A stretch of 64,000 nucleotides of DNA from positions 1 through 64,000 of the forward strand of contig BDDD01006641.1 in NCBI GenBank assembly GCA_001972305.1, in the 5' to 3' direction. The stretch is from Cephalotus follicularis. Taxonomy: Eukaryota; Streptophyta; Magnoliopsida; Oxalidales; Cephalotaceae. Below are positions 11,823 to 46,862 of the stretch, piece after piece. Positions within the stretch are counted from its first letter, which is position 1. The number at the start of each line of letters is the position of its first letter. The position numbers and the translations under genes are program-made. The notes under the pieces are model-generated. The model saw only the letters and a list, made by a program, of their open reading frames with translations, was not told the DNA's origin and ran no database searches.

Positions 11823-11827
11823 TCAAG

Positions 11828-12023: not shown

Positions 12024-12184
12024 TGTAATGCCCGGATACTTTCTTCATTGCATTGTCGTGGTTCTCGATGTAAATTTATCGAGAATAAATGAAGATTATC
12101 AATTCCCCATCTTGAAATGTTAATCTTGAGTGAAAAGTATTAAGAAATGTTATAATGAGTTGAATTATGGAAAAGTGCGCTCAA

Positions 12185-12302
12185 GCATCGACGCCAAGGG
12201 TAAAGCGTCGATTCTTGGGGGAAACAGCCGACTGTCAAATAAAACTGTCGACTGGGAGACTGTTTGAGGAAACAGTCAACTGTTAGAGAAGAACAGTCGA
12301 CT
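12185..12302 (+). promoter_or_regulatory. RYCGAC array 1 in TEKAY1 LTR
   Basis: Site centres at 12189, 12209, 12229, 12249, 12277 and 12298 give steps of 20, 20, 20, 28 and 21 bp. Cores are ATCGAC, GTCGAT, GCCGAC, GTCGAC, GTCAAC (decayed) and GTCGAC. The array lies about 160-280 bp into the LTR. The single 28-bp step also appears in SOLO-B and GYP2. Confidence 0.7.
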
Positions 12303-12989
12303 GGATGACACTCTGTCAGAGCAACACATTAAATGATCACATGCAGCAACATAGGGGAAGGAAGAGAACGCCACATGTGCGTCATGCAGCCAAAAGGGAG
12401 AAAGAATGGGACACTTGTGCACCATTCAAGCTGTATGAGAGAGGGAAATGGACACTTGTGTGTATGCAGGTTAATTGAAGAGAGAGAGAGACCTTGGGTA
12501 CCATGCATACGGGCTGGAAGAGGGGAGAGAGAAATGAAACCTGTATAAACACTCTCTTCTCCATCTCTTCGTCCAGCACCTGGAAAGAAAGAAGAACAGA
12601 AAGAAAAATAGAGAGGAATAGAGACAACCAGTGAGAAAACGAGAAAAGTAGGGAGAGAAAGAGGGAAACCATTCTCCATTATTGGAAGCTTGGAGTTGGA
12701 CAGGATTGGAGCTTGCAGTACCGGACCTAGGGAGCTTGAAAGCTACTGGTCAGTGAAGCTTATAGAGGTGGACTTCGATTCCTAACTTGGAATCTAAGGT
12801 AGGGACTTTATAATTGTAATTTCAGTTCAATTATAGTAATGGTTCATTTGGTGAAATGCATGAGTGATGGTAGTGTTCTGTGGCCCATATGATGACCATT
12901 GATGATATTCTGTTACATGAATATTGTTGAATAGCTTGCAATAATCTGTTTAGATAAAATAGAATGGTTTGCATACTACTGTTCCGCAG

Positions 12990-13305
12990 AACAGTCGACT
13001 GTTGAAGGAAAACAGCCGACTGTTCAAGGTAGACAACCGACTATTAAAGGAAAACATTTGACTATGCATGTGTTATTTTGCCCAGACACTGCAGGAAGAT
13101 ACTATTGGGTGAATTGTATGTGTACTGTTTCGTAGAAACAACCGATTGTTAAAGGAAACAGTCAACTATTGAAGGAAACAGTCGACTGTTGAAGGAAAAC
13201 AACCAACTGTTGAAGGAAAACAGCCGATTATCCATGTGTTGCTCTGTGTAGAACAGCCGACCGTTAAAGGAAACAACCGACTGGTAAAGGAAAACAGCTG
13301 ATTGT
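12990..13305 (+). promoter_or_regulatory. RYCGAC array 2 in TEKAY1 LTR
   Basis: Runs of AACAGTCGACTGTT-type sites alternate with GAAGGA-rich spacers. Centres are 12996, 13017, 13038, 13059 (steps of 21), then 13143, 13163, 13183, 13204, 13225 (20-21), then 13258, 13278 and 13299 (20-21). About half have lost the CpG (GTCAAC, ACCAAC, CAGCTGAT), as expected from deamination of methylated cytosine. Confidence 0.72.
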
Positions 13306-14002
13306 TACTGTAAATAATGACTTTTAGAGGAAGCGGTAGATGTAGAAATGACGCTAAAAGAATCTGTTGCATTTTTGAGCATATGCTCGCCTGCATAATT
13401 GTTATTATTTGAATTGTGGATTGAAACGTAATTGATTCTCAAATGTTTTATCATTTTAGAAAATGCATACATGATTTTATAATAAATCATTATTTTATAC
13501 GAAAATGCTATTTTCGGAAGATTGAAACATTGTTATACGAAAATGAATATTTTCGAAATGATTGAAACATGATTTCAAAGACTGAATATAGTTTGAGAGA
13601 CTGAAATACATTTTGAATAAATGTATCATTTTCAAGTATTTTATAACTTATAAATTACTTGGAAAGGACTGATTTTGGATTGAATGATTTATTGTGATTG
13701 ATGTCGCGTCGACCGCGTGACGAAGTTATCATTGATGGATGGGGGCGGGATGTTCGCCTAGGTGCCAATAGATGGCTAAGGACACCCACACATGTTTGAG
13801 TTACTGAACACTTAGTGCGATTAACCTAGTTGCTGAACACAGAGTGTGAGCAACCTTTGATTGATTGGCTTGCTTCGGTTTGTCCGGGAGACAGGGGCCG
13901 GACTAAGGGTGCGACGTCGGGGCCAGGAGATGGCTACGCTATTCGTACAGTTGATTGGATTGATTGGTCCTTTGTGACATGATTGATGGATTGCATGGTT
14001 GT

Positions 14003-14719
14003 TGTAATACCCCGTTTGTTTGTGTGCTTATTTTCGGATTTTTATTTAATTTCATTTCGCTTTGTTATATTATGTTGGCCTATTTTATGTTTTGGGCTTT
14101 TATGTTTTGGGCTAAATGGTGTAGCTTTTGGACTTTTGGATAATGGCTAGAATAGCTACATGAATAAGTAGATATTATTTGAATTAATTCTTTTGTAATT
14201 TGATAATAACTTAAGGCAGTTTTATTATGAAAATGGAAAAAGTATTTTATTTGGAACTTAAATAGTGTAATATGGCAAATTGTTTCAATTTGGAAAACAA
14301 ATGATGTAATTTTGGTTAAAGGTTTATTTGTTTTGTATTTTAAAATCGGTTTTTAATTCAATATGGTAGGAGTGTTTCGATAGGAAACAAAATAAAGTAA
14401 TTTTGGCAAAAATTGTTTAATTGGGAAATAAATTCCTTATTACTATTTTAAAACCTATTTGTTTCCTAACTCTCCTCTCCCTCTCCCGTAAGTCTCTCCC
14501 CTCTCCCTCACAAAACAGATTTTCTTCCTTCTTTCTCCCTATCAATCCCGAAATTCTGCCTTCTTTCCACATTATATCAGATTTTGGATTCCTTTTTACC
14601 TTACCATGACCTAAATTGCCTTTCTTCTTGGTTAAGTATGCTATATGCTTATTGTTTGTGCCTCCATTGGTTATCTCTCTCTCCTGGAGCCGAACCTGCA
14701 TGATTAGAACCTGTTATTG
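14003..14719 (+). mobile_element. SOLO-B: solo Gypsy LTR, left part
   Basis: The LTR runs from TGTAATACCCCG at 14003 to GGGGGTGTTACA ending at 23512. Perfect target copies GTTGT lie at 13998-14002 and 23513-23517. COPIA-S1 interrupts it; without that it is about 3.2 kb. No internal region or second LTR is present, so it is a solo LTR left by unequal recombination. Its 3' part closely matches the reverse complement of 48450-49253, and it shares modules with the GYP2 LTRs. Confidence 0.9.
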
Positions 14720-14885
14720 TCTTCTGTTGGCCTTTGCCAACCCGTTTAATTACGTTACCATATGTTATTTTGATGATTAACAAACAGAGATTACTTGTAT
14801 GCATAATTCCTTGAGTTATAACTTCATGTACTCACTTGATTTTATGTCCAAAGTTGTGCCAAGAACATTTCTGTAGGAACAGGGC

Positions 14886-15325
14886 AATCCAGCCGACTGG
14901 CAAGCAATCCAGTCGACTGCCCAAGGTTGAGTAGTCGACTGTCAAGGGTTGTGTAGCCGACTGGTTCTTCAACCAAACTCAGATTTTGCAAGAACACCAA
15001 TCCAGTCGACTGCCACAGGGGTCCAGCGACTGCCAGGCCAAGACAGCCGACTGCCACAGGACACCAGTCGACTGCCATGGGTGCACATTTCAGGCAGTAG
15101 CTTTTGTATCTTTTTAACACCCAATCCAGCCGACTGAAGCAGGGGACCAGTCGACTGCCAGGGGGTCCAGTCGACTGCCAGTGAATCCAGCCGACTATTT
15201 TCAATTGTTCAATTTCAGGCAGTAGCATTTGTAAACTCCAATTTCAGCTCAACGGCCGACTGGAACAGAACATCCAGTCGACTGCCAGCTCCACCAGTCG
15301 ACTGCCAAGACCATGCAGCCGACTG
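14886..15325 (+). promoter_or_regulatory. RYCGAC array: four clusters of four sites, U3 of COPIA-S1
   Basis: CpG positions are 14894, 14914, 14936, 14958; 15007, 15027, 15048, 15069; 15131, 15152, 15172, 15192; and 15257, 15279, 15299, 15320. Steps within clusters are 20-22 bp; gaps between clusters are 49, 62 and 65 bp. Cores are GTCGAC or GCCGAC inside CAGTCGACTG or CAGCCGACTG. The array ends about 120 bp upstream of the TATA-like box at 15441, where enhancer sites are expected. GCCGAC is the DRE/CRT core, and RYCGAC is a described CBF-binding consensus (recalled, not looked up). Binding by such a factor is inference. Confidence 0.72.
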
Positions 15326-15440
15326 TCCAACACCAACGGCTATATTCAAATGTACGCGCCATCAATCCAGCTGACAGCCGTAGAAATCCAGCCTACTGGA
15401 TTTGTAACAGACTTGAAAAATAGATCCGTTGGAGCACAAG

Positions 15441-15448
15441 TATAAAGG
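15441..15448 (+). promoter_or_regulatory. TATA-like box of COPIA-S1 LTR
   Basis: TATAAAGG lies downstream of the palindrome array. It is repeated in the 3' LTR at 20753 and replaced by TATTTAAG at 49713 in COPIA-S2. It is the best candidate for the retrotransposon promoter, marking U3 to the left and R to the right. Confidence 0.55.
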
Positions 15449-15999
15449 GCAAAGTGAAGCATTCTTGGGGACAACTCTTGCAATCATATTGAACATTCAT
15501 TCTAGTCATCTCAAGTGCAATCCCAAAGCTTTCAAACATCAAAAGAGATCAATCCAAAGAAATCCTACACATTACAAAGCTTTAGTTTTACATTTCCTAT
15601 ACACTTGAAGCTTTGTTCAAAGTGAGCTACATTGTAAAACAAATTCCTACGAATTTGTAACCTTCAAACAATTACTTTCACACATACAAGAGAGGTTGTC
15701 TCTTGTATTGCTCGGTTGGAGCACATTTGTAATTCGCTTGGTTGGAGCGAAGGTTGTTGAAGCTCGGTTGGAGTTTCAAGCCCGGATTGGGGCATACCTA
15801 GTGAAATACTCAAGGAGAGGCCTTGGGGAGTGGACGTAGGCGGTTTGTCGAACCACTATATATCCGTTTGCAATTCTCTCAACCCTACACTCTTTACTTT
15901 CCGCAATTGTGTGCTTGAGTTATTTGAATTGTTAGTGGTATTTTTGCTAGTTATTTTTTATTAGTCTATTCACCCCCCCCCCTCTAGACTTCCTACAAT

Positions 16000-16011
16000 T
16001 GGTATCAGAGC
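16000..16011 (+). other. COPIA-S1 primer-binding site
   Basis: TGGTATCAGAGC is complementary to the 3' end of initiator Met-tRNA. It begins two bases after the LTR end at 15997 and primes minus-strand DNA synthesis. Confidence 0.9.
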
Positions 16012-16053
16012 GGGTTGCTCATACTATTAAGATTAACATCTTGAGTTAAGATC

Positions 16054-17166
16054 ATGGCCTCAACTAGCATGAACAACCAATCCCGACACAATGACGATGT
16101 CTCCGAATTTAAGGTACCATTCTTTAGTGGTGACAATTTTCCGTATTGGAAAAGTCGTATGGAGATATACCTTAAGTCTAGAGACTTTAGGAATTGGCTT
16201 AGTGTAAAAAATGGCCCTCACACCCCTATGAAGCTAAATGATAAAAACAAACTCATTTCCAAACCGGAAGACGAATGGGATGAGGATGACTTTAGGAAAT
16301 TGACCATAGATAATAAGGCTTTAAATATATTGCTTGTCTCTCTTGATAAAACCGAATACAATCTCGTTAGGAGATGTACTTCTGCACATGAGGTATGGAA
16401 ATTGCTCATCCTTACCCATGAGGGTACCGAGCAAGTTATGAATGCTAAACTTGCTTTGTTAAATAGAGATTACGAATTATTTAAAATGCAACCGAACGAA
16501 TCCATTAAGAATTTGTATAATCGGTTGCTTGACATTACTAATGGTTTGCTTAGTCTTGGAAAGGTGTTTGGACAGGACGAACTCGTGAGGAAATTGCTAG
16601 GGTGTCTCAACGATGAATGGGAACCCAAGGTGACGGCAATTGAAGAATCGAAAGACTTGAAGACCATGGAAATTGAAGAACTTCTTGGCTCCCTCATGAC
16701 TCATGAGGTAAAATTGAACAAGAAATCGGCAAATCTTGTGGAGACAAAGCCACAAGAGGAGATAAGAAAGGACATTGCTCTTAAAAGTACACACAAAGAA
16801 GAAATGTCAAGTGAATATGAGCTAGAGGAAGAGGACTATGTTCTCTTTGCGAAACGGTTCACAAAATTCGTAAAGATGAACAAAGCAAGAAGGTTCCAAA
16901 GAAAGAACTTCAACAAGGGAGAGGGAAGCAAGATGGATCCTCCTGCATGCTTCGAATGCAATAAACCGGGGCACATCAAAGTTGATTGTCCACAATTGAA
17001 GAAAAAGAAGTTATTCAAGAAGAAAGCACTCAAGGCATGGCACCTTAGTGATGACGAATCCTCCGATGATGAAGTCACCGAGCAAGTGGCAAACCTATGC
17101 TTCATGGCATTGAGTGACGATGAGGATAGCGAAAATGAGGTAGGCGATTCTTACACATTTGGTTAA
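16054..17166 (+). CDS. gag: Copia Gag polyprotein (COPIA-S1)
   Basis: This is a 370-codon open frame starting 42 bases after the primer site. The N-terminal part (about residues 15-70, with FSGDNFPYWK) and the following helical region match the DUF4219/UBN2-type Copia capsid. A CCHC zinc knuckle (CFECNKPGHIKVDC) is at residues 299-312, followed by a Lys-rich stretch and an acidic tail (DDESSDDE). Gag forms the virus-like particle and packages RNA. The frame stops at TAA 17164 but continues in the same frame directly after it, so this may be a single-stop break of a longer Gag. The ATG is the first in the frame after the primer site. Confidence 0.88.
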   Translation: MASTSMNNQSRHNDDVSEFKVPFFSGDNFPYWKSRMEIYLKSRDFRNWLSVKNGPHTPMKLNDKNKLISKPEDEWDEDDFRKLTIDNKALNILLVSLDKTEYNLVRRCTSAHEVWKLLILTHEGTEQVMNAKLALLNRDYELFKMQPNESIKNLYNRLLDITNGLLSLGKVFGQDELVRKLLGCLNDEWEPKVTAIEESKDLKTMEIEELLGSLMTHEVKLNKKSANLVETKPQEEIRKDIALKSTHKEEMSSEYELEEEDYVLFAKRFTKFVKMNKARRFQRKNFNKGEGSKMDPPACFECNKPGHIKVDCPQLKKKKLFKKKALKAWHLSDDESSDDEVTEQVANLCFMALSDDEDSENEVGDSYTFG

Positions 17167-17841
17167 TTGCAATTTCCTTTTGATGAATTACTTGTAGAGT
17201 TTAAGAAGAAATGTTCACAATGCACTTTACTTAAGAAAAACATGACCAGTGGAGAAAAAGAAAAAGAGTTACTAGTTATTGAAAATGAACATTTGAGAAA
17301 TGACATTGCCATTTTAGAACATGAACTAGCTAAAAGGGATAATGACATAGCTAAACCTACTTCATCTAGTGACATTGCATTAGAAAAAGAAGTAGAATCA
17401 CTCAAAGAGAAAAATGTGAATTTAGAAAAATCCTTTAGCAAATTCACTCTAGGTAGCAAAAAGTTAGAAGAGATGTTAGGTAGTCAAAGATCATACCTAG
17501 ATAAAACCGGCATAGGCTATGCTCCTCTAGAGGTTAAGGCTAAGTTAAAAAAGACTAGAATTAGACCTCATTGTACTTATTGCAATAAAATGGGACATAC
17601 TAGAAATAAATGCTTTAGAAGGATTGCACACTCACATCACTCACACACTAGACCATCACCTAATCATAATCCAATTACTTTTAGACAAGTGTGGGTTCCC
17701 AAGGGAACTATGAGTCCTAAATGTAACATTAAAGGACCCAATAAACAATGGGTACCAAGATCAAATTCCTTTAACACTTTTATAGGTGGAACAATGCTTG
17801 CGGGCAAACCACAAAGAGGAGCAACCGTGGTATATGGATAG
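17167..17841 (+). pseudogene. gag: Gag C-terminal extension with coiled coil and second zinc knuckle
   Basis: It lies in the same frame as gag, separated by one TAA, and has no ATG of its own at the start. Residues about 30-110 are rich in Glu, Lys and Leu with heptad spacing, suggesting a coiled coil. A second knuckle (CTYCNKMGHTRNKC) is at about residue 136, followed by a His/Pro-rich stretch and a WVPK-type linker known from SIRE-like elements. The frame ends at TAG 17839. The protease continues in the next frame, so a +1 shift near 17800-17825 separates them, either decay or programmed. Confidence 0.75.
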
Positions 17842-18409
17842 CAGGTGCTCGAAGCACATGACTGGTGACAAAAGCCTCTTCATCGATCTCAAGGAAGTTG
17901 ATGGAGGAAAGGTCACCTTTGGGGACAACAACAAGGCCAAATTTTGTGGCATTGGTTCAATTGGTAACAAATTCTCTACTCTAATTGAAAATGTATCTTA
18001 TGTTGTAGGCCTTAAGCATAATTTGCTTAGTGTTAGTCAATTATGTAGATATAAAATTAATTTTGAGTCCTCACTTTGTCACATTATTGATTCTAGCACC
18101 AATATTGTAAAGTTTGTTGGTCATAGACAAGGCAATGTGTATGTGGTTTATTTAAAAGAAATGTTTTCAAAAGATGTTTGTTTTAATGCAAATACAAATG
18201 ATAAATGGCTTTGGCATAGAAGATTAGGCCATGCTAGCATGGATGTTCTTGCCAAACTTTCAAGAAAAGATTTAGTAATTGGTTTGCCTAAAATGAAATT
18301 TGAAAATGATAAATTGTGTGATGCTTGTGCACAAGGCAAACAAACAAGAACATATTTCAAGGCTAAAAATGTTGTTTCTACTACTCGTATTTTGAATGGG
18401 ATGGTTTGA
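17786..18409 (+). pseudogene. pol: Copia protease and pre-integrase domain, truncated pol
   Basis: The aspartic protease motif reads WYMDSRCSKHMTG: the usual DSG triad is DSR, so the protease is probably inactive. Next comes the GAG-pre-integrase domain with an HHCC pattern (LWHRRLGHAS and CDACAQGKQTR). The pol similarity ends abruptly at about 18388 within VSTTR, just before the integrase core should begin, and the frame stops at 18407. No integrase core, RT or RNase H follows anywhere in the element. Confidence 0.82.
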
Positions 18410-19340
18410 TTACATTTGCTCATCTCATGTCATTTATCCTAGATTAGTGAAGCTATTCTATGCCAATTTAGAGTCCTCCACCACTTGTATTGCAAATTCC
18501 TTTGTTTTAGGCACTCCTATATCAATTACTCCTGATTTGCTAGCTGAAACCTTAGGAATTCCTAATGAGGGAATTACTCATTTCAATGATATTGGAAAAA
18601 CGGAGGCCCTAGGAATTTGTTTAGAACAACCAAATGTCAATCCTCTTATGAATGTGACTAGTAGTCACTTGCCTATTGCCTCTAGGATCATTCTCCTACT
18701 TGTAACAAACACAATCCTCCCAAGAGAAGGCTCGCACACCCTCCTTTCAGAGCGAGACCTTAAATTCGTTGCATGTGTCAAGAATGGAACCCTTATTAAC
18801 CTTCCTTATCTCATTGTCAACCACATGTTATCTCGACCAAATCACACACCTTATCCTATGCTTCTCAGTAGGATCATTATGGTTGCCCTTGCATCACTTA
18901 ACATTGATATTCCTGATGATGAGCTAAGTTTTAAACCTTCCCATAAGCAGTTGGTGAATAAGGCAGGGCTTAGACTGTGTAACATTATATTTGAGGATGG
19001 TGAGTGGGTCAAGTTACAAGGCAGAGGTAGAGAGAAAATAAGAGAGCAAGTTAATGTAAGACCAGGAGATGATGAGGATGAGGATGAGGACGATCCTCAG
19101 CAGTTTGAGGTGCGTCCGAGTGTTGGTCAGAGCAGCAGCAGCAGCAGGCCTACCCTGGAGTCACTTCAGGCTAGGATGGATCTTGCCCAACCCAACATCG
19201 AATATCTTAAAGGGCCAATGAACCAGTTCGGTGAAGGACAAGCAAATATCATTCAAGGACAAGCCGACATCCTTCGTGGCCAAGCCAGTCTCCTTGAGAT
19301 GTTTCAAAATGCATTTCCCCAGCATCCTCCTCCCTCTTGA
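18396..19340 (+). CDS. ORF of 314 codons replacing pol; plant transposon-protein-like domain
   Basis: The frame is open and begins at the point where Copia pol is lost; its ATG overlaps the end of the protease frame. Residues 5-215 resemble the plant-specific domain often annotated as putative plant transposon protein (segments such as YPRLVKLFYANL and LLAETLGIP). An acidic run (DDEDEDEDD, about residue 228) and a Ser run follow. The C-terminal part repeats GQANIIQGQADILRGQ in 7-residue steps, suggesting a short coiled coil. It has no catalytic motif I recognise. It could be a captured gene piece or a relative of the env-like ORF of SIRE elements. An open frame in an otherwise broken element suggests recent capture or selection. 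Confidence 0.65.
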   Translation: MGWFDYICSSHVIYPRLVKLFYANLESSTTCIANSFVLGTPISITPDLLAETLGIPNEGITHFNDIGKTEALGICLEQPNVNPLMNVTSSHLPIASRIILLLVTNTILPREGSHTLLSERDLKFVACVKNGTLINLPYLIVNHMLSRPNHTPYPMLLSRIIMVALASLNIDIPDDELSFKPSHKQLVNKAGLRLCNIIFEDGEWVKLQGRGREKIREQVNVRPGDDEDEDEDDPQQFEVRPSVGQSSSSSRPTLESLQARMDLAQPNIEYLKGPMNQFGEGQANIIQGQADILRGQASLLEMFQNAFPQHPPPS

Positions 19341-20036
19341 GCTACATTTGCATCTCATGTGTTTTTATTATATTTTCAAACTTTGCCAATGTAATATCTT
19401 TCGATGTTTTTGAATTGTAAAAGACAATGTGTTGGTTGATGTACTTAATGTTTTTTTAGTATTTAATGACAATATGCATTTGATCTTTAATGTTTTATGT
19501 ATGGAATTACAATGTGTTTCATATTATTGCTTTGATCTTGTTTACAATGTGGTTAATGCACTTGTTTATGTACTTCAAGTTTTAATTGGTAAATGGAATT
19601 GTGCTTCAATCTTTATTGATCTTCAATTGATTGAATATGGTTTCTCTTATTGCATTGACCTTATTGATAAAATTGAATTTGAATGCATATGTTGAGGGGG
19701 AGCTCTTCAATCCATGCTATGATTGAGGGGGAGCTTCCATTTCTCTTTTTGTTATTTGACAAAAAGGGGGAGAAATATTATTTTGCATTGCACATATTGC
19801 ATGGAAATTGAAAGTTTGCATAAATGAAGTTGCATGCATTTGGGGGAATTATATTACTAAAACTTCATATTGATGAGATGGGTTGTAATCTTGCATTGAG
19901 CAAGTGTGTTTTGATATAACATATGCCTTGGATATGCCAAAATTGATAAAATTGGACTTTGAACTAAAAATGGTTAAGTTTGTCAAGAATTTATGCAAAA
20001 TATGCATGTTTTGTCAATCATCAAAAGGGTGGAGAT
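19341..20036 (+). mobile_element. COPIA-S1 3' untranslated region and polypurine tract
   Basis: This is about 0.7 kb of AT-rich sequence with TTGAGGGGGAGC twice (near 19693 and 19724), an AAAAAGGGGGAG tract (near 19763) and the final tract AAAAGGGTGGAGA at about 20022-20036. Several G-rich purine tracts before the last one are usual for SIRE-type elements. No coding sequence is recognised. Confidence 0.75.
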
Positions 20037-20998
20037 TGTTGGCCTTTGCCACCCCGTTTAATTGCGTTACCATATGTTATTTTGATGATTAACAAACAGA
20101 GATTACTTGTATGCATAATTCCTTGAGTTATAACTTCATATGCTCACTTGATTTTATGTCCAAAGTTGTGCCAAGAACATTTCTGCAGGAACAGGGCAAT
20201 CCAGCCGACTGGCAAGCAATCCAGTCGACTGCCCCAGGTTGAGTAGTCGACTGCCAAGGGTTGTGTAGCCGACTGGTTCTTCAACCAAACTCAGAATTTG
20301 CAGGAACACCAATCCAGTCGACTGCCACAGGGTCCAATCGACTGCCAGGCCAAGACAGCCGACTGCCACAGGACACCAGTCGACTGCCATGGGTGCACAT
20401 TTCAGGCAGTAGCTTCTGTATCTTTTTAACACCCAATCCAGCCGACTGAAGCAGGGGACCAGTCGACTGCCAGGGGGTCCAGTCGACTGTCAGTGAATCC
20501 AGCCGACTGTTTTCAATTGTGCAATTTCAGGCAGTAGCATTTGTAAACTCCAATTTCAGCTCAACAGCCGACTGGAACAGAGCATCCAGTCGACTGCCAG
20601 CCAAACCAGTCGACTGCCCAGAGGAGACAGCCGACTGCCCAACACCAACGGCTATATTCAAATGTACGCCCCATCAATCCAGCTGACTGTCGTCCAAATC
20701 CAGCCGACTGGATTTGTAGCAGACTTGAAAAATAGATCCGTTGGAGAACAAGTATAAAGGGCAAAGTGAAGCATTCTTGGGGACAACTCTTGCAATCATA
20801 TTGAACATTCATTCTAGTCATCTCAAGTGCAATCCCAAAGCTTTCAAACATCAAAAGAGATCAATCCAAAGCAATCCTACACATTACAAAGCTTTAGTTT
20901 TACATTTCCTATACACTTGAAGCTTTGTTCAAAGTGAGCTACATTGTAAAACAAATTCCTACGAATTTGTAACCTTCCCCCCCTCTAGACTTCCTACA
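20037..20998 (+). mobile_element. COPIA-S1 3' LTR (962 bp, internally deleted)
   Basis: It matches the 5' LTR from TGTTGGCC to CTTCCTACA but jumps from AACCTTC (20971-20977) to CCCCCCCTCTAGAC, losing about 300 bp of R-U5. All sixteen palindrome sites are kept at the same steps (20206, 20226, 20248, 20270; 20319, 20339, 20360, 20381; 20443, 20464, 20484, 20504; 20569, 20591, 20611, 20632). The TATA-like box is at 20753. Confidence 0.9.
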
Positions 20999-21607
20999 TC
21001 TTCTTTGCTTCACTGAATCAGGTTTGTTCCTCTGTTATTATGGTTAGCATTTGGTTTTGGTTTTATTGTTATCCAATTCTATTTCATGATGGTTGCTAGT
21101 GTGGTTTATTTGATTTCTGCAACTCTAAGTGCTATCATGGTTTCTGAACCTGTCAACATGCATTAGGTAGATGTTATGTACTAGTTTTGATAAACAAATA
21201 ATGATAGTTGACAAGAAATTGATCATATAGGCATCTATGCATGAAATTGAAATTTGTCTCTTAATAAAATATGAACATGGTTATCCTATTGGCTTGTGTC
21301 CTGGTGTTTTGTAATGGCAGCCTTAGAACACCAAATATGAACTATCTAATCTGGCATAATAACCTAGTAATAATGCCTTGATGGAATCGGATCATAGGAA
21401 TAGAGGTTAGAATTTCATAAGTCTCTTTAAAAAGTGTGATCACCATTGCATGATTTCTTGATTCGGGGTGTTTAAATGCAACTGTAAAGTCACATAAGTC
21501 CTATGTAAGTGTTTAAGATCATCTGGTAATGTGGTAAAATGATTTTGACAGAAGATTGGCTTAGACTTGTGTAATTCCTGCTGTATTTTGCTGTTCCGAC
21601 GAGCAGA

Positions 21608-21812
21608 ACAGTCGACTGTCCATTTAAACAGTGACTGTTAGACTTTGAGTAGTCGACTGCCTTGTAAAACAGTCGGCTGGTTGCCTTGCACAGTCAACTG
21701 GACCCCTGTCACAGTCGACTGGATTCAACCCAGTTTGAGTAGTCGGCTGCCTATGCGATACAGTTGACTGCCATCTTTGAACAGTCGACTGGATTTTGTT
21801 ACAGCCGGCTGG
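21608..21812 (+). promoter_or_regulatory. RYCGAC array in SOLO-B
   Basis: Centres at 21613, 21633 (one base lost), 21654, 21674, 21695 (GTCAAC), 21716, 21744, 21765 (GTTGAC), 21786 and 21806 give steps of 20, 21, 20, 21, 21, 28, 21, 21 and 20. Extended sites read ACAGTCGACTGG or AGTCGGCTGC. The spacing matches that of the unrelated Copia LTR nested only a few hundred bases away. Confidence 0.75.
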
Positions 21813-22435
21813 AATTGTCCAGTAAATTTTCTGGTTTCAAGTTTCGTTATCCGTTAGGTTTTGTAATGATTTGGAGTATGCTTTTGACACTGCTAAATTG
21901 CTGTTTGATGTTTGGAAGTGATTTTTGAACCCTTATATGAATGATATTGTATATTTTAGATTCTTGTGCTTCGAGGGACTTTTAAAATTGTTGATCAATT
22001 CGTCTATCTTTGTTGTGATCGCATAAGGTATGGATGTTTCGTTCCTTGATACCCTCCTATCGGTTTTACTGTTGTAAATAAAAGATAGTTTTACTTTATG
22101 AATAATGTACGGATTTTTTGCTCTTTGGCTATCTGCTTTTATTGGAACTATCCCGTTTCACTTTTTATGAACTTGGCTATGTTTTATGATTCGATACGAT
22201 TTTGAAAATAAAAGTCAGTTGACATTTTGCGATTTTAATGTTCTTGACTTTACTCTTATGCTATGATATGTTAAGAAATATGATACGATCATCTCTTTAT
22301 AATGGAAAATAAATGAGTTGATACTATGTAATGATTTTGATATGCCCAGAAAATGTTTAGAAAATGTGTTTACGTTTTAAAATTGTTTTTGGAAATAAAG
22401 CAATGTTTTTGAAACAAGGATATACACAGAGATAT

Positions 22436-22600
22436 TTCCTACCTATGGAGGTACCATAGGCATGTCGTAGGCCTGGCACGGGGACATGACACTTCCGTAG
22501 CAGTGTGATTTGACTACGGCGCTCTCTATGTTATGAATAAGTCCCATGAGGTGGACTTATGGATCCGATATGTGTGATAGAGGCGTATGGGTCGACTCTA
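22436..22600 (+). repeat. Conserved LTR module with CCTATGG...CCATAGG hairpin
   Basis: The block starts with CCTATGGAGGTACCATAGG, an inverted repeat, then GGCATGTCGTAGGCCTGG, ACACTTCCGTAGCAGTGTGA and GATAGAGGCGTATGG. The same block occurs at about 4856-5005 and 9960-10130 (both reversed), 36486-36560 (truncated) and 42228-42400. A companion box, CCGCATGG...GAGCAAACCTCAGTACGGAT or its complement, occurs at about 4180, 9615, 23085, 42400 and 48830. It is more conserved than surrounding LTR sequence, so it may hold RNA packaging, polyadenylation or strand-transfer signals. Confidence 0.65.
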
Positions 22601-30098: not shown

Positions 30099-30100
30099 AG

Positions 30101-30112
30101 TGGTATCAGAGC
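30101..30112 (+). other. COPIA-T primer-binding site
   Basis: TGGTATCAGAGC follows the 5' LTR with a two-base spacer and is complementary to the initiator Met-tRNA 3' end. It confirms the plus orientation. Confidence 0.88.
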
Positions 30113-33317: not shown

Positions 33318-34677
33318 TGTAACGCCCGACATTTTCCTATGTTGTAATTTCACAATGTAACGTGTTTTTATTGTGGAATTAATAAAGTGATGGATTCTAA
33401 GACTTTGATGATGTTTTCCAAACTCTAATAATGTTAATTTTAAAGTAAAAATGTTAAAGAAATGTTAAAAAGGCAAATCAATGAGAAATGATGCTGTTTT
33501 GGAGGAAACGCGTCGACGCCTTTCTAAACACGTCGACGTCCTTGAAGCAAAGGGGTGCACGTAACTGCATGCACATGACGCAGGCGTGAACATCGACGCC
33601 CTCGTGTGAAAAGGGGAAAGACGTCGATGTCTTTGAAGAATACGTCGATGCGTAACATCGAATGTCAGGCACGTTACTCTGTTGACAAAATAACGTGCAA
33701 GGGGGCACTATCTAGGCATTTTAACGTGCAGATCATGACGTGTTGAGCATGCAATATGGTACCCTGAACTGCTAGGACTGAAATGGCAGGAGTGGGAAGG
33801 CATGTGAGAGCATGCATTGGCCTTGGCAGCAAAGGGGAGACACCTGGTGCGCCATGCAACCAGGTGTGGGGAAGGTGTGAAGAAAGAGGGGATTCTGGCG
33901 TTGGTGCAAAAGGAAACAAACTTCAACCAACATAAAACTCCCTTCTCTTCCCAAAACGAACGAGGAGGAAAATAAGAGAAAGGAAAACACAAAAGAAACA
34001 GTGAGGAGGGATAAACGTTTCCACCGTTGTTGAACTTGGTTGGAGCTTGGAACTTGGGGCTGGTGGCTTGCAGCAACGGGACGGACCTGGAGGGGCTGTT
34101 GTGACCAGCTTGGAACGCAAAGAGGTGGACTTTCTAGTTCCTAACTTGGAACAAAAGGTAGGGGAAGCCATAACTGTAATCTTGAGATTAATGTTCATGC
34201 ATGGACTATGGTTTTGGTGTATAAATTGCATGATTACTGAATTGATTTTGCTCACTGGATCGATGCCATGTTATGCTAGATATGTGATATGTATCTGCAT
34301 GTTGGTTCCCTGCCTTGATTACATGTTGTTTTGCATGTATATGGTTTGTAATGGTTACTGTCTGTTACATCGTGAGGAAGAAGATGACTGCTACTCGAAA
34401 AACGTCAACGCCTTTTAATAACATCGACGTCTTTGGGTTGTTTGCTTGGTTACTGACGTGAAACAGATCGACATCTTTGGAAAAACATCGACGCCTTTGG
34501 CTATCTGCTTGGGTTTTGATGTATTACACGTCGACGCCTAAGGTTCCTACCTTAACGCATCGACGCCGTAAGCAATACGCTGACGTTTAAAGGTTCCAGA
34601 CCTTGAGCGTCGATACATATGAAATGGACATTGACGTCTTTAAACAGTAGAACGCGCTGACACTAAGGACTTGGACA
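33318..34677 (+). mobile_element. SOLO-C: solo LTR, left part
   Basis: The LTR starts TGTAACGCCCGACATT and, after the nested GYP2, ends AAAACGGGGTGTGACA at 44076; without GYP2 it is about 2.7 kb. Target copies ATTCT (33313-33317) and ATACT (44077-44081) differ at one base. There is no interior and no second LTR. It is related to the TEKAY1 LTR in its 3' half. It carries many ATCGACG/CGTCGACG sites. Confidence 0.85.
33511..33661 (+). promoter_or_regulatory. RYCGAC array 1 in SOLO-C
   Basis: Sites CGTCGACG (33514, 33534), CATCGACG (33594), ACGTCGAT (33625, 33646) and ACATCGA (33659) show steps of 20 and 21 bp with longer gaps between. The flanking bases ACGCC or ACGTC followed by CTTT recur, giving this LTR its own version of the site. 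Confidence 0.6.
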
Positions 34678-34682
34678 TCGAT
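34400..34682 (+). promoter_or_regulatory. RYCGAC array 2 in SOLO-C, hit by GYP2
   Basis: Centres are near 34406, 34425, 34469, 34489, 34532, 34561, 34582, 34611, 34632, 34659 and 34679, and continue after GYP2 at 42753 and 42773. Steps cluster at 19-22 and 27-29 bp, with 43-44 bp where a site seems lost. GYP2 inserted in the site at 34678-34682, so its target copy TCGAT is the motif core. Confidence 0.65.
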
Positions 34683-36829
34683 TGTAATAACCTGCTCCTT
34701 CGTAAATATTTTTTTTTACGGATTTTATATGTGTTTTCGGGCTTTTACTTTTGTTTAATTTTAAAAGTCCGGTTGCCCTATGATCGGGTTTACGTGAATT
34801 GAGTTGACTAATACCAGTCCGAAATTTGGGTATATTATGCTATGTTGGGTTTGGGTTTTATTTATTTTATAATAATTCAAAATTAGTTATTAAAAACAAT
34901 TTATTTACCTTTTATTTTAAAATCCATTAATTCTTTAATTTTCCTTTTTCCTATTTTAACATTTTCTCCCACTTTTCTCCTACTTCCTCCCATCTTCCTC
35001 CTTCTTTCCAGCAAATTCCTTCCTCCCACCATCAAATGTCATGCTAAAGTCTCTCTTTTCCTATTTCAAAATCCAGAAAAGTTTCCTTTCTTCCCCCTTT
35101 TGTCAAATCATGTCTCCTCCTTTCTCCTTTATTGAGTGCCTTTGTCATTTTAAATGTTGCCTTCATCTTTCTTGCAAGCCATTGCAGATTCTATCTTGTT
35201 AGTGTGCAATAATTTGCTGTGTAATTCATTCATCAAATTCGTAGAGGTAAATTCGATTCTTAGTTGTTCTTCAAGTTGAATTCATTGGGTTTGCTAAACT
35301 TCTCTTTATTTTGGTTGGTCTCTGTTTTTGTCACAGCAGATTGTGTGTTTGTGTTTGTGTTCCTCCTGCTAGTTTCTGTGTCCTTAACATCACTACAGGT
35401 CAGTTAATTCGTCCCCTTTAATTATAGTTTTGTTTCAATGGCATACTTTGAGTTTTTATGCTCTTGGTGTCTTTGGGTCATTGATTCTTGCCTAATCATG
35501 TTGTCATTGTGTTAGTAATGTTATCAGCACATTTTATGCATCTATATATGTCACAAACTGAGTTTATAACATCTGTAATCAATTAGAGACAGAATTTGGA
35601 CATATACATGCATTGCCTTCTTATTTCCTTTTGTAAGACAAATCACTATCAAGTTGTTTCCTTGTCAAATTTGTGTTTGTATGTCACCTACAAGTCATAT
35701 ATGATCATATGTTTATGTCATTATGTCCCTAGTTTAATGTAGAAACCATTTGAACCATTTTCAGTAGCAAATAGTCGGATTTCCAACTCTTCTGTCGCCC
35801 AGAACAGTTTGCTGTCTCTGTGGACAGTCGGCTGGAATGGTTGTGTAGTCGACTGGAGGGATGAACACAGTCGACTGCCTACACTTTTAATTGTGTAGTC
35901 GACTGGACCATATGAACAGTCGACTGCCATGCCTCCCCAGTCGACTGGAACCCTGTTTTAGTCGACTGTTTTGCCCTGGAATGTGCTGTTTTCAACTGTT
36001 TTGATTCGTTTGACCCCCCAATCGATCCGAATCTTTTCCAAACACTGTTAAGAGTCTGTTTAATGCTTCTGATATATTTTAGACTCTTACACGTATGATT
36101 TTGAATGCCTTTTAGATTGTGTGCTTCAAAGGAGAAATTGTTTTTGATCGCCTATTTGTAAGTACCGTGTAAGCGCATAAGGTACGGATTTTCTGTTCCT
36201 TGGCTATCTGACATTCAAACTGAAACTGTTTTGATAAGCACCTTCGTTTATGAAATCAACGATGTTTCATGATTTTTATACGTTTCAAATTTAAAGTTGG
36301 TTTGACATTTTAATTGATTCCGACTTTATCTATACGATATGTTAGGATACGATATGTTAGGATATGATATGTTATAATACTATTGTGAGCAGTTTTTGAA
36401 TATGTTGTGTGAAAACATATTTATGTGATTTAAGTTGATTTTGATAAATCAATTATTTTTGAATTAAATACTGAGTATTGTACCCACCTATGGGGCGTAT
36501 CCATAGGCACGTCGTGGGCCTGGCACGGGAACGTGACACTTCCGTATGATGACCACCCTATGTGTTGGATCCTTAGGAGAGTGATCCTTATGTTATGTTT
36601 AGTGGTCTGATATATGGATTTTTATGTTTTATGTTTTAAATTGGAACTAATTTATGTTATAAATTTTCCGCAACTACTTAATATGTTAAATGTTAAGTTT
36701 TGAATTTTTGATAAGACTGCCACGTTTTCTGGCTGTTATTGGCTAATAAAGCAAGTTATTATGATTTGTTAAGTTGAGTTATGTTATGATATGACCCTGT
36801 GACGACTCCCACCGTCCGAGGGTGTTACA
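34683..36829 (+). mobile_element. GYP2 5' LTR (2147 bp)
   Basis: It starts TGTAATAACCTGC and ends GAGGGTGTTACA. Compared with the 3' LTR it lacks a segment equal to 42290-42446 (157 bp), joining at about 36546. The lost piece includes most of the conserved LTR module. It carries a palindrome array at 35772-35966 and a CT-rich run near 34965-35010. Confidence 0.9.
35772..35966 (+). promoter_or_regulatory. RYCGAC array in GYP2 5' LTR
   Basis: Centres 35776, 35796, 35809 (decayed), 35829, 35850, 35872, 35900, 35921, 35942 and 35963 give steps of 20, 13, 20, 21, 22, 28, 21, 21 and 21. Cores are mostly GTCGAC within AGTCGACTGG or AGTCGACTGC. The 28-bp step stands in the same place as in SOLO-B, so these two Gypsy arrays share ancestry. 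Confidence 0.75.
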
Positions 36830-36834
36830 GATTG

Positions 36835-36845
36835 TGGTATCAGAG
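36835..36845 (+). other. GYP2 primer-binding site
   Basis: TGGTATCAGAG lies five bases after the 5' LTR end and is complementary to initiator Met-tRNA. Confidence 0.9.
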
Positions 36846-36998
36846 AATTAGGTTTTGTTTCCTTATAAGACCTAACTAGGTTTGACCTATGAGATTGGGT
36901 AGACACCGGGTTAGGCTGCTTTGTTATGATCTTACGATAAGTTTTCTGTTTTTTGTTTTGTTCCTTGTGATGTTTTATGTTTAAGTGCCTTTTCGTAG

Positions 36999-39900: not shown

Positions 39901-40364
39901 GGTTGGAACTTTTGAAAGACTATGATTTGAACATTCAGTACCATCCTGGTAAAGCGAATGTGGTAGCTGATGCTCTAAGCCGGAAGAGTTCTGGGAATGT
40001 AGCGGCTTCGCTTACTCAGCCGTAGTTGATAGCTGATATGGAATGGATGGATTTGCATCTGTATGTTCGGGGTTCTGATGGTTGTATTGCTGCGATGAAT
40101 GTTGAGCCTACTCTTGTATCTCGGATTAAGACAGCTCAAGGTGACGATGGTGAACTTTGGGTCTTAGTCCAGAATGTTGAAAGGGGTAAGCAATCAGAGT
40201 TCCGTATAGATGAGCAAGGTGAGATATGGCTGGGTAATCGGTTGTGTGTTCGGTCAGATTCTTCTATCAGAGAAGCTGTTTTGTCAGAGGCACACAGTTC
40301 TCCATTTTCTATACATCCAGGTTCCACGAAAATGTATATGTATAAGGACTTGAAGAATTTGTGA
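36999..40364 (+). pseudogene. gag-pol: GYP2 gag-pol: one frame, six stops, integrase deleted
   Basis: From ATG 36999 the same frame runs 1122 codons without a frameshift. In order: gag capsid (about 37200-37760, WWKA), two zinc knuckles (about 37950-38045), protease (DTGS near 38207), RT (38810-39370, IDD motif in VFIDDILVY), RNase H (39640-39990, YSDAS intact), and an integrase zinc-binding stub (HPGSTKMY, 40313-40363). Stops: TAG at 37047, 37881, 38802, 39723 and 40023, and TGA at 38013. The catalytic residues I can see are intact. Integrase core and tail are missing. Element type is closest to Tekay/Del chromoviruses. Movement would need integrase supplied by a relative. Confidence 0.88.
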
Positions 40365-40398
40365 TTTCGGGACGAAATCTTCTTTTTAGGGGGGTGGA

Positions 40399-42729
40399 TG
40401 TAATACCCTGCTTGTTCGTAAATATTTTTTTTTACGGATTTTATATGTGTTTTCGGGCTTTTAATTTTGTTTAATTTTAAAAGTCAGGTTGCCCTATGAT
40501 CGGGTTTATGTGAATTGAGTTGACTAATACCAGTCCGAAATTTGGGTATAATATGCTATGTTGGGTTTGGGTTTTATTTATTTTATAATAATTCAAAATT
40601 ATTTATTAAAAACATTTTATTTACCTTTTATTTTAAAATTCATTAATTCTTTTATTAATTCTTTAATTTTCCTTTTTCTTATTTTAACATTTTCTCCCAC
40701 TTTTCTCCTACTTCCTTCCATCTTCCTCCTTCTTTCCAGCAAATTCCTTCCTCCCACCATCAAATGTCATGCTAAAGTCTCTCTTTTCCTATTTCAAAAT
40801 CCAGAAAAGTTTCCTTTCTTCCCCCTTTTGTCAAATCATGTCTCCTCCTTTCTCCTTTATTGAGTGCCTTTGTCATTTTAAATGTTGCCTTCATCTTTCT
40901 TGCAAGCCACTACAGATTCTATCTTGTTAGTGTGCAATAATCTGCTGAGTAATTCATTCATCAAATTCGTAGAGGTAAATTCGATTCTTAGTTGTTCTTC
41001 AAGTTGAATTCATTGGGTTTGCTAAACTTCTCTTTATTTTGGTTGGTCTCTGTTTTTGTCACAGCAGATTGTGTGTTTGTGTTTGTGTTCCTCCTGCTAG
41101 TTTCTGTGTCCTTAACATCACTATAGGTCAGTTAATTCGTCCCCTTTAATTATAGTTTTGTTTCAATGGCATACTTTGAGTTTTTATGCTCTTGGTGTCT
41201 TTGGGTCATTGATTCTTGCCTAATCATGTTGTCATTGTGTTAGTAATGTTATCAGCACGTTTTATGCATCTATATATGTCACAAACTGAGTTTATAACAT
41301 CTGTATTCAATTAGAGACAGAATTTTGACATATACATGCATTGCCTTCTTACTTCCTTTTGTAAGACAAATCACTATCAAGTTGTTTCCTTGTCAAATTT
41401 GTGTTTGTATGTCACCTACAAGTCATATATGATCATATGTTTATGTCCTTATGTCCCTAGTTTAATGTAGAAACCATTTGAACCATTTTCAGTAGCAAAT
41501 CGTTGGATTTCAAACTGTTCTGTTGCCCAGAACAGTCGGCCGTCTCTGTGGACAGTCGTCTGGAATGGTTGTGTAGTCGACTGGAGGGATGAACACACTC
41601 GACTGCCTGCACTTTTAATTGTGTAGTCGACTGGACCATATGAACAGTCGACTGCCATGCCTCCCGAGTCGACTGGAACCCTGTTTTAGTCGACTGTTTT
41701 GCCCTGGAATGTACTGTTTTCAACTGTTTTGATTCGTTTGACCCCCGAATCTATCCGAATCTTTTCCAAACACTGTTAAGAGTCTGTTTAATGCTTCTGA
41801 TATGTTTTAGACTCTTACACGTATGATTTTGAATGCCTTTTAGATTGTGTGCTTCAAAGGAGAAATTGTTTTTGATCGCCTAATTGTAAGTACCGTGTAA
41901 GCGCATAAGGTACGGATTTTCTGTTCCTTGGCTATCTGACATTCAAACTGAAATTGTTTTGATAAGCACCTTCATTTATGAAATCAACGATGTTTCATGA
42001 TTTTGATACGTTTCGAATTTAAAGTTGGTTTGACATTTTAATTGATTCCGACTTTATCTATACGATATGTCATGGTACGATATGTTAGGATACGATATGT
42101 TATGATATGATATGTTATAATACTATTGTGAGCAGTTTTTGAATATGTTGTGTGAAAACATATTTATGTGATTTAAGTTGATTTTGATAAATCAATTATT
42201 TTTGAATTAAATACTGAGTATTGTACCCACCTATGCGGCGTATCCATAGGCACGTCGTGGGCCTTGTACGGGGACGTGACACTTCCGTAGTAGTGTGATT
42301 AGACTACGGCGTCTCTGAGTGTATGAACGAATCCCATGAGGTGGATTTGTGGATCCGCTATGTGATAGAGGCGTATGAATCGATTCTCCGCGTTTTTGTT
42401 TCCATGCGGCAGGTTTTCAGGAGCAACGGGGGAAAGTGTGATTGAGTGATGACCACCCTATGTGTTGGATCCTTAGGAGAGTGATCCTTATGTTATGTTT
42501 AGTGGTCTGATATATGGATTTTTATGTTTTATGTTTTAAATTGGAACTGATTTATGTTATAAATTTTTCGCAACTACTTAATATGTTAAATGTTAAGTTT
42601 TGAATTTTTGATAAGACTGCCTCGTTTTCTGGCTGTTATTGGCTAATAAAGCAAGTTATTATGATTTGTTAAGTTGAGTTATGTTATGATATGACCCTGT
42701 GACGACTCCCGCCGTCCGGGGGTGTTACA
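40399..42729 (+). mobile_element. GYP2 3' LTR (2331 bp)
   Basis: It starts TGTAATACCCTGC after the tract AGGGGGGTGGA and ends GGGGGTGTTACA. It keeps the full conserved module at 42228-42400, including GATAGAGGCGTATG and CCGCATGGCAGG. Palindrome centres are 41537, 41557, 41578, 41600, 41628, 41649, 41670 and 41691 (steps 20, 21, 22, 28, 21, 21, 21), identical in spacing to the corresponding part of the 5' LTR. Confidence 0.9.
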
Positions 42730-42734
42730 TCGAT

Positions 42735-44076
42735 GTTGATGGACAAAGACATCGATGCCTTTTAATAGACATCGACGTCTTTTGGTACTGTATGGAGGTT
42801 TCCTTATCTAACGATGCGAAACGATCCCGATTCCTGTTTGGGTGCATTTGAGAATTTATGCATTGCATATACACTGTTTACTGCCTGTTTGTTTACTGTT
42901 TGTAAATCGTTTATGATTTCTAAAGTTATGATATTTAGAAATGCATATGTGAACTCGGAATGCGCTATTTTGAGTATGAAAATATGTATTGGTTAATAAC
43001 GCATTTTCGAACAAACTGGAAAGCGATTTACACTACTTGTTTCTTCAAAAGTATTCCTACTACTGAAAATACATATTTCAAATGTTATTCAAAATATTTG
43101 AAAATGAACTGCCTGTTGTCGATCTAAACGATAAATAATGTACTACTTACTGCACTGTTTACTGTTTTGATTCACCGTTTGCTCTGTGAATTTATTGTGG
43201 TTGTGCTTGAGCCACTGGTTGCATAGCGGAGATTGCCAGCGCCGGCTAGTGGTAGGGTTGACCTAGGGGCCAGGAGTTGGCTGGGTAACTCACTGTACTG
43301 TACTGTTGCCTTGCTTGGTTGCCTGGAGTAGGGACCGAAGTGGGAGTGAACGCGGGGCCAGGAGTTGGCGGCGTTACACATACTGCCTGACTGTTGTGGT
43401 CCTTTGTGGACTTACTGTACTGCCTGTTGGTCCTTTTCGGACATTACTGTGCCTGTTGATGTAACCCTGGCCGGGTTACAATTGTACTGTTCTTGCATAC
43501 ATATATTTTCGTATATATGTACCCACTGTTATTTTTACTGTACCGCTAAAATATATATATATATATATAAACTGATATTTCCTACACTGCATCATTTATG
43601 CATACATCACATGACATGCATTTAATGTTGATCCCGAGCTACTTTTATGACTTAGCCGAGTGAGGACAAAGGCTAACCCCTTACTTTACAGATTGATGCA
43701 GTGGACCGGTTGGACTGGCACGGACGAAGAACAAGTCGTTATGCTGTTTTATTCTTGGTTTTACTTATTCTAAGTTGTAATAAACTGTTTTGATTAAGGA
43801 TTTCTAATGTACTGTACTTATGGTTTTGTTTAAGGTTGGGATTTAATATTGTACTGTGATCACGCTCCGTTTTGTGGGCCATTAACAATGACTGATTTGT
43901 TTGGGTAGCGTGCAGTATGGGATGCACGTTACGTATTTTCAGCTTATGAATCTTATGCTTCCGCAACTGATATCTTATTTAAAAGTTTAAATTTTATGGT
44001 ATTTACATGAGCTGAATTTATATGTTAATTGCCTTCACCGCTTTAATGTTGTCTTCTCAAAAAACGGGGTGTGACA
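42735..44076 (+). mobile_element. SOLO-C: solo LTR, right part
   Basis: This is the continuation after GYP2. It begins with two more palindrome sites (42753, 42773), contains GGGGCCAGGAGTTGGC twice (near 43280 and 43350), a TA microsatellite (about 43548-43569), the GACTTAGCCGAGTGAGGAC region (near 43648) and ends GGGGTGTGACA. No coding sequence is recognised. Confidence 0.83.
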
Positions 44077-46803: not shown

Positions 46804-46862
46804 AACTCCAAGGTTAAGCGTGCTGCACTCAGGAAACCAGGATGGGTGACCTCTTGGGAAGC
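46804..46862 (+). ncRNA. 5S rRNA-like segment, copy B
   Basis: This is the same segment as at 46284 with box A kept (GTTAAGCGTGCT) and one change in box C (CTCTTGGG for CTCCTGGG). It is in the same orientation as copy A. Confidence 0.72.

Follow-up and report, generated by a model that had tools for sequence, protein, structure and literature searches.

The closest described counterparts of the arrays reported here are the RM boxes of Sireviruses (Bousios 2010; PMC2829016). These boxes are palindromes that occur in at least eight copies per element in the upper part of the Sirevirus long terminal repeat (LTR), and they match stress-factor sites in the PLACE database. Maize Sirevirus LTRs were also reported to carry palindrome clusters in their cis region, with an excess of small RNAs there (Bousios et al. 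2016, as cited in PMC10760457). A further parallel is provided by the VANC-target arrays of VANDAL elements, which are dense non-coding arrays of a short motif that varies between families (PMC5735166). In this work, we analyzed a window of 64,000 nucleotides from the plant Cephalotus follicularis (contig BDDD01006641.1, positions 1 to 64,000), in which the LTRs of Copia and Gypsy retrotransposons carry arrays of short dyads, hereafter boxes, spaced about two helical turns apart.

On the basis of three published sequence hallmarks, the elements named COPIA-S here (copies S0, S1 and S2) are Sireviruses. The hallmarks are the primer binding site (PBS) junction, the polypurine tract (PPT) octamers with an AT/TG attachment, and a poly-C signal located some 21 bp before the LTR terminus (PMC2829016). 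In S1, the 5′ LTR ends in CA and is followed by ATTGG and TATCAGAGC (15996-16011), a junction shared, with A as the last base, by S2, L012 and L043. S1 also carries AGGGGGAG octamers and a variant terminal PPT, AGGGTGGAG, with the AT/TG attachment at 20035-20038, and the poly-C integrase signal CACCCCCCCCCCTCTAGACTTCCTACA lies at its LTR 3′ end. Therefore, the COPIA-S array belongs to a known kind, the RM boxes. Like them, it consists of palindromes in at least eight copies upstream of a TATA box and with divergent flanks, and the Vitis RM CGGTCGACCG has the GTCGAC core in common with the boxes here (PMC2829016). In contrast to RM boxes, which begin 200-400 bp into the LTR and bear a CGG-CCG signature, our boxes begin at about 165 bp and combine a TCGA core with CAG, GCG or ACG arms; Tnd-1, in the same RM table, likewise lacks the signature (PMC2829016). 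RMs were absent from 30 classic Ty1/copia elements, whereas we also found boxes in a classic Copia leader and in Gypsy LTRs, and the helical phasing and arm covariation described below are absent from the portions of PMC2829016 compared. The maize palindromes have an unlike motif (CACCGGAC/GTCCGGTG) with a Helitron counterpart and, in the portions of PMC10760457 compared, no Gypsy one.

The original prediction, made from the sequence of the window, held that these Copia and Gypsy LTRs share one palindromic core, RYCGAC, at steps of about 20-21 bp, and suggested that a cold/drought array spread over several families would be new. RYCGAC is the consensus of barley CBF proteins, and the LTR promoters of ONSEN (heat-shock elements) and of Tnt1 and Tto1 have gathered stress-factor sites, each in one family and with a known factor; unlike the arrays here, they form no cross-superfamily set of arm classes. 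The claim of novelty has to be narrowed, since palindromic boxes of Sireviruses were published in 2010 (PMC2829016). What appears to go beyond that work is the occurrence of boxes in Gypsy LTRs and a classic Copia leader, with arm classes A and B/C (defined below) in both Sirevirus and Gypsy elements. Among the matches listed in literature searches, in which subscription journals were thinly covered, no title or opening of an abstract described palindromic arrays common to LTRs of the Copia and Gypsy superfamilies; a search on palindromic GTCGAC in LTR retrotransposons gave no match, and the string CAGTCGACTG retrieved only unrelated-looking titles among the matches listed. We consider it fairly probable that the arrays are multi-site cis-regulatory platforms in retrotransposon control regions for one or more dimeric, sequence-specific DNA-binding proteins.

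Results

Copia and Gypsy LTRs of the window share core sites at two-turn spacing

RYCGAC/GTCGRY sites total 107 in ten LTR copies of the window, whereas 1000 dinucleotide shuffles gave 10.3 on average and never more than 21. Adjacent gaps of 19-22 bp number 56, compared with a shuffle mean of 0.034 (maximum 2); SOLO-C entered these counts with preliminary borders. When site number was fixed and placement was uniform, p was at most 0.003 in 9/10 copies. SOLO-C gave p=0.11 with exact cores because 3/9 units of its array are degenerate. In the rest of the window, 49,484 bases in all, 28 sites lie scattered; the LTRs of LARD1, COPIA-T and SOLO-D were predicted to lack arrays. The shared core and the spacing are thus confirmed, and the original prediction, which had staked itself on 20-22 bp peaks stronger than in shuffled LTRs, withstands that comparison because of these counts; the peaks are also far stronger than expected in 20 sampled regions and, against a reversed pattern, genome-wide. 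Window shuffles, 20-region shuffles and genome-wide pair counts together reject chance as the source of the arrays. Longer steps were also found (28, 46-52, 62-65 and 73-75 bp). The predicted range of 12185 to 42775 was too narrow, as arrays also lie at 20-286, 10693-11695 and 49419-49668. Nor is there one palindromic core: the units are extended dyads with different arm classes, and one GYP2 array mixes two class-B with four class-A units.

The repeated unit is a dyad with symmetric arms

The array unit is longer than RYCGAC and consists of a TCGA core with arms that covary symmetrically. The arms fall into class A (CAG/CTG; consensus CAGYCGACTG), class B (GCG/CGC; near AAGCGTCGACGCTT) and class C (ACG/CGT), of which B and C intergrade. 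In the genome sample, class C reads AGACGTCGACGTCT, with one-sided variants in addition; it was assigned by inspection of sites, and the scripted labels are cruder (L048, C-like by inspection, was scored 10 B/4 C). In S1 and S2 together, the ten box columns carry 0.9-1.9 bits, with the outer arms at a core-like 1.3-1.9 bits, and the spacer columns are mostly below 0.5 bits, apart from two columns preceding the box (0.7-1.3); the first arm base of TEKAY1 is looser (0.7 bits). Left and right arms matched in the genome sample at 69/85 sites for position 1 (34.7 when re-paired), 47/85 for position 2 (24.3) and 44/85 for position 3 (33.0), and the symmetry is kept in the window at positions 1 and 2 (54/65 and 46/65). 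Exact 21-bp pairs of full boxes occur 1,915 times genome-wide for class B (control 3) and 46 times for class C (control 0). In the S1 5′ LTR, 16/35 CpGs fall inside boxes, and the CpG ratio outside boxes is 0.39.

These arms bear on the proposal that the boxes are RYCGAC/DRE sites for AP2 factors of the CBF/DREB type, which would give the LTRs a cold or drought response. RYCGAC is indeed present on at least one strand of most units (15/16 in the S1 5′ LTR, 8/9 in S2, 6/9 in SOLO-C), all of those in S2 are oriented one way, Y is the chief variation in Sirevirus arrays, and stress-factor matches in PLACE have been published for Sirevirus boxes (PMC2829016). However, conservation is not limited to the AP2 core, the outer arms being about as well conserved, and both arms change together from one class to another, a symmetry that a six-base AP2 site would not need. 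The proposal is therefore unsupported as originally worded, a plain six-base CBF site is weakened as a candidate, and we regard an enhancer of this type as unlikely. Conserved symmetric arms are what a dimer-bound dyad platform would be expected to have.

Boxes keep a helical phase across the genome

In the home genome (1.58 Gb in 9746 contigs), GTCGAC pairs occur 105,145 times at 21 bp (reversed-pattern control 1,224), 41,498 times at 20 bp (391), 773 times at 25 bp (71) and 68 times at 16 bp (72), repeat counts that can be lower bounds. An unbiased sample of 20 regions of 10 kb, picked by contig number and including 10,737 bases of N, held 266 sites, whereas 100 shuffles averaged 124. Pairs at 19-22 bp numbered 51, compared with a shuffle mean of 0.28 (maximum 2), and clusters of at least three sites occurred in 11/20 regions. 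All-pair distances of 12-130 bp in these regions peak at 10.2 bp. The range of 44-130 bp was chosen so that the 21-bp and 42-bp steps add nothing to the peak, and in this range alone the period is 10.4 bp, with a power of 23.1, whereas none of 1000 jittered sets exceeded 8.0. Distances in the window have a 10.5-bp period (power 18.7, null maximum 7.2). The reversed-core control was clean in the 20 regions (power 1.3) and partly contaminated in the window because CAGCCG falls inside class-A boxes. Double-stranded DNA, recognized by a dimer on one helical face, is what this pattern in the sequences points to.

Palindromes could instead act in the transcript, where neighboring boxes would pair into hairpins that serve the element or feed host small RNAs. 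Folding is stronger than in shuffles for TEKAY1 (z -6.9), SOLO-C (-4.0), group 1 of SOLO-B (-3.7) and S1 (-2.5), and maize Sireviruses offer a precedent (PMC10760457). Nevertheless, S2, with its one-sided C, folds near its shuffles (z -1.2, with 26/200 shuffles at least as good), as does GYP2 group 2 (z -1.0), although boxes are kept in both, and hairpins leave the long-range 10.4-bp phase unexplained. Hairpins as the conserved feature are weakened accordingly, and we judge this alternative improbable, on a par with the CBF/DREB enhancer.

In viral contigs, the array pair pattern had one match, in a 58%-GC contig (L001) taken as chance, and the triple pattern had 0 matches. Triple-pattern matches at five prokaryote loci (L002-L006) are 21-24 bp tandem repeats with CAGTCGACTG at 51-71% GC and were taken as unrelated. 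Positions 1-5189 of L022 form a 5-kb tandem satellite of about 163 bp that adjoins GTCGAC arrays.

Boxes are better conserved than spacers

Between the S1 3′ LTR and S2, differences affect 5/90 box positions, 54/160 spacer positions and 113/430 positions outside the array (Fisher test, p=1e-7 and 3e-6), and between the S1 5′ LTR and S2 they affect 8/90 box and 59/160 spacer positions. The two LTRs of S1 (14725-15665 and 20037-20977) differ at 24/339 spacer, 8/432 outside and 5/170 box positions, in blocks that spare most boxes, a distribution that hints at recombination between family members.

Arm classes recur in Sirevirus, Gypsy and classic Copia elements

Class A occurs in the Sireviruses S0, S1, S2 and L043, whereas the boxes of L012, which precede a TATA-like box, belong mostly to class B. 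We also took U3 pieces at the first 12 of 3,357 exact matches to the Sirevirus PBS junction, and 8/12 had at least three sites. L046 (17/17) and L049 (9/10) are of class A, L050 (4/5) and L053 (5/6) of class B, and L048 (15 sites) and L044 (3) are C-like by inspection, the latter being scored 2 B/1 C by the script; L052 and L047 (5 sites each) are sparse and mixed. Of the pieces without an array, L045, L051 and L054 have no sites and L055 has one.

Gypsy elements, which, unlike the Sirevirus set, were not drawn by PBS junction, have class-A arrays within the LTRs of TEKAY1, SOLO-C, GYP2 and L018; in L023 such an array immediately precedes the aligned LTR, and in L029 it lies upstream of the PBS. 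SOLO-A and SOLO-B are of class B, as is, weakly, an array next to the Gypsy pol of L024; both LTRs of L028 have C-like arrays, and L019 has a mixed B/C array beside Gypsy pol. In the classic Copia element L026, with a 0.5-kb LTR, a class-C array (3848-4040) directly follows the PBS in the 5′ leader. This array, AAAGAC[AG]TCGATGTCTTT, thus occupies an RNA leader position rather than U3, and RM-type boxes are not confined to Sireviruses among Ty1/copia elements. A search for the Sirevirus junction in viral contigs gave one match, the phage-like L007 (DNA polymerase B, RecA and DnaB domains).

A protein encoded by the elements themselves could read the boxes in the manner of VANC anti-silencing proteins, with the arm classes shifting along with the protein. 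VANC targets are short, tandem-arrayed motifs that differ between related elements (PMC5735166), and S1 carries an extra open reading frame (ORF) with a PF20167 domain. VANC targets are bound by a protein encoded by a DNA transposon, their dense arrays are unique to the cognate family, and the portions of PMC5735166 compared describe no dyad. The 20 window ORFs scanned gave gag/pol domains, PF20167, and weak eIF3g and sub-threshold zinc-finger matches, and this non-exhaustive scan found no DNA-binding ORF common to Sirevirus and Gypsy elements. We consider such an element-encoded reader very improbable. If the boxes are protein-bound platforms, a host factor would be likelier than an element-encoded one because the ORFs scanned include no shared extra gene.

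Spacers suggest an inverted transfer between superfamilies

With boxes fixed and spacers shuffled, all four Sirevirus arrays compared are similar to the inverted SOLO-C array (p 0.0005 to 0.0085), whereas no resemblance was found between them in direct orientation (p at least 0.07). Among 24 tests with TEKAY1 and GYP2, only the S1 3′ LTR against the inverted TEKAY1 3′ LTR fell below 0.05 (p=0.006). A joint test with SOLO-C inverted gave a mean score of 53.75 against 33.9 (p=0.00025, or 0.003 when the null preserves column preferences). The corresponding values were p=0.05 and 0.40 for TEKAY1 inverted, and 0.01 and 0.07 for the best single score. SOLO-C-family copies from outside the window show this again: L040 resembles S0 over 79 bp, inverted (p=0.001 within spacers, 0.0045 under the column null). 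Across 18 Sirevirus-Gypsy pairs, the within-spacer null put 14 comparisons below 0.05 in inverted and 2 in direct orientation, and the column null 8 and 2, counts that are not independent because the pairs are related.

The one-sided variant CAGCCGACT appears in 42/42 cases across six Sirevirus arrays, and in five TEKAY1/SOLO-C-like arrays of known orientation the reverse variant AGTCGGCT appears in 4/4 cases. L042 and L010 have no one-sided variant, and GYP2 has 2 in the Sirevirus sense; L009, among the arrays of the 18 pairs, was excluded from this polarity count because its orientation rests on the array alone. Judging from these spacers, at least one inverted transfer of an array between superfamilies is probable. 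One such transfer would fit the SOLO-C and Sirevirus data and would leave the B and C arrays unexplained. The original prediction had offered two explanations for unrelated LTR families with a common core and spacing, and both find evidence: recurrence of the two arm types, A and B/C, across Sirevirus and Gypsy elements for a common factor, and this inverted spacer sharing for cassette exchange.

Descent without function would extend this to a minisatellite, in which a 21-bp unit slipped in one LTR family and was spread by recombination or template switching. The units are tandem repeats, mostly in fours in the S1 5′ LTR, where the Y position reads C-T-T-C in 3/4 groups, and the inverted spacer sharing, including L040 with S0, fits copying. 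In most arrays, though, boxes are far better conserved than spacers, a contrast that weakens a pure minisatellite. Furthermore, among 50 class-B pairs listed, one spacer recurs six times and most occur once, and symmetric arm covariation is unexpected from copying a single unit. We therefore give this account a low probability, slightly below those of the hairpins and the CBF/DREB enhancer, and retain the multi-site binding platform.

Elements of the window

The features are collected in Table 1. S1 is nested in SOLO-C, flanked by the target duplication TCTTC at 14720-14724 and 20999-21003, and the SOLO-C LTR is therefore split. Units number 10 in S0 (cut), 16 and 18 in the S1 LTRs and 9 in S2; in GYP2, SOLO-A and SOLO-B the sites form two groups per LTR. 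In SOLO-A, the group at 10693-10978 lies downstream of the other in the sense of the element, and no TATA-like box was found in this LTR. The SOLO-B and GYP2 LTRs share 67.5% identity over 160 bp. TEKAY1 ORFs encode Gypsy gag, protease and reverse transcriptase (RT) domains; "Tekay" is a putative lineage name from the original prediction, and a protein search with the RT placed Tanacetum and Helianthus, both Asteraceae, first among the best 120 of at least 8000 matches. None of the four S1 ORFs scanned has an RT domain. The PF20167 (putative plant transposon protein) ORF at 18396-19340 sits in the env position of S1, and a homologue (61%) occupies 647-1552 on the minus strand of L029, where the opposite strand carries a Sirevirus-type gag nearby. 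The window also contains a tandem-repeat block with periods of 67-95 bp and no GTCGAC cores (51732-53032) and, within 1 kb at 46053-46955, direct and inverted repeat copies that are 88-95% identical.

Table 1. LTR elements and box arrays of the window
Feature	Position	Strand	Remarks
Sirevirus LTR S0, cut by window start	1..452	-	89% identical to S1 LTR
S0 array	20-286		10 full class-A units and one cut at edge; steps 20,20,21,62,21,21,21,49,22,20
SOLO-A LTR, LTR end undefined	10500..11826	-	class-B groups 11570-11695 and 10693-10978
GYP2 3′ LTR	12024..14002	+	two site groups flank TATA-like box near 12544
GYP2 group 1	12185-12303		2 class-B units followed by 4 of class A; steps 20,20,20,28,21; upstream of TATA-like box
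GYP2 group 2	12992-13304		class-A units, several of them degenerate; downstream of TATA-like box
SOLO-C Gypsy LTR, 5′ part	14003..14724	+	interrupted by Sirevirus S1
Sirevirus S1 5′ LTR	14725..15997	+	units 14890-15398; TATA-like box ~15441 (LTR offset 716)
S1 internal region	15998..20036	+	ATTGG/TATCAGAGC after LTR end CA, gag, partial pol, PF20167 ORF
S1 octamers AGGGGGAG	19695, 19726, 19765	+	
S1 3′ LTR, internally deleted	20037..20998	+	units 20202-20710
SOLO-C Gypsy LTR, 3′ part	21004..~22690	+	approximate end; class-A array 21609-21811
SOLO-B LTR	33318..34682	+	class-B units 33510-33651 and 34402-34637
TEKAY1 5′ LTR	34683..36829	+	class-A array 35825-35968; PBS at 36835
TEKAY1 3′ LTR	40399..42729	+	class-A array 41533-41696
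Sirevirus S2 LTR	49254..50265	+	9 class-A units 49419-49668; 8/9 exactly CAGCCGACTG

Discussion

Overall, after analyzing the window and the genome sample, we provide a putative mechanism for the arrays. Each box would be a dyad bound by a dimeric sequence-specific protein or a small set of paralogues. The two-turn spacing of the boxes would set many protein molecules on one face of the DNA, where they may jointly influence transcription or LTR chromatin, and the arrays would grow via tandem duplication within an LTR. The bound protein is presumably encoded by the host, and its effect may be activation rather than repression. The position of boxes upstream of a TATA-like box in the Sireviruses S1 and L012 favors such a regulatory function.

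Several observations weigh against this platform. The contrast between boxes and spacers is small for S0 and S1 (3/108 against 10/177), boxes are not spared in the TEKAY1 LTR pair (3/70 against 1/74 in spacers), as expected for divergence after insertion, and the MAFFT alignments behind the comparisons may match non-orthologous boxes. In the window, position 3 shows no arm symmetry (20/65, with 19.5 when re-paired), and p-values for arm symmetry are optimistic because sites within one array are related. Phasing is also imperfect: among 15 targeted loci, mostly picked by spacing, the best period is 7.1 bp, although the 10-bp power beyond 44 bp is still 9.6, above the null maximum of 7.2; the 28-bp step common in Gypsy arrays corresponds to 2.7 turns, off the main face; and some class-B arrays among the 12 Sirevirus U3 pieces are irregular. 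Downstream of the likely start site, where some of the Gypsy groups are located, boxes may have a role in RNA. Part of the sharing between families may reflect exchange. Finally, AGGCGTCGATGTCT and AGACGTCGATGTCT occur within one array, and classes B and C may therefore be one loose specificity.

A stronger version of the platform is that Sirevirus, classic Copia and Gypsy elements all depend on one family of dyad-binding proteins and bear its sites in phase-locked arrays, with parallel switches between CAG and GCG/ACG arms around a fixed TCGA. We hold this version only tentatively and find it somewhat doubtful; its probability is lower because the B and C arms intergrade.

If this is true, retrotransposons of different superfamilies would share, across the genome, a regulatory or anti-silencing code that is readable from sequence. 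Since the description of Sirevirus palindromes in 2010, no factor has been known to bind them, and more than 100,000 phased pairs in unrelated superfamilies, together with symmetric arm classes, make the question of that factor testable. A candidate must read the TCGA dyad, discriminate between arms, and tolerate or need the two-turn phase. Its identification would show how unrelated elements share or compete for one host control system.

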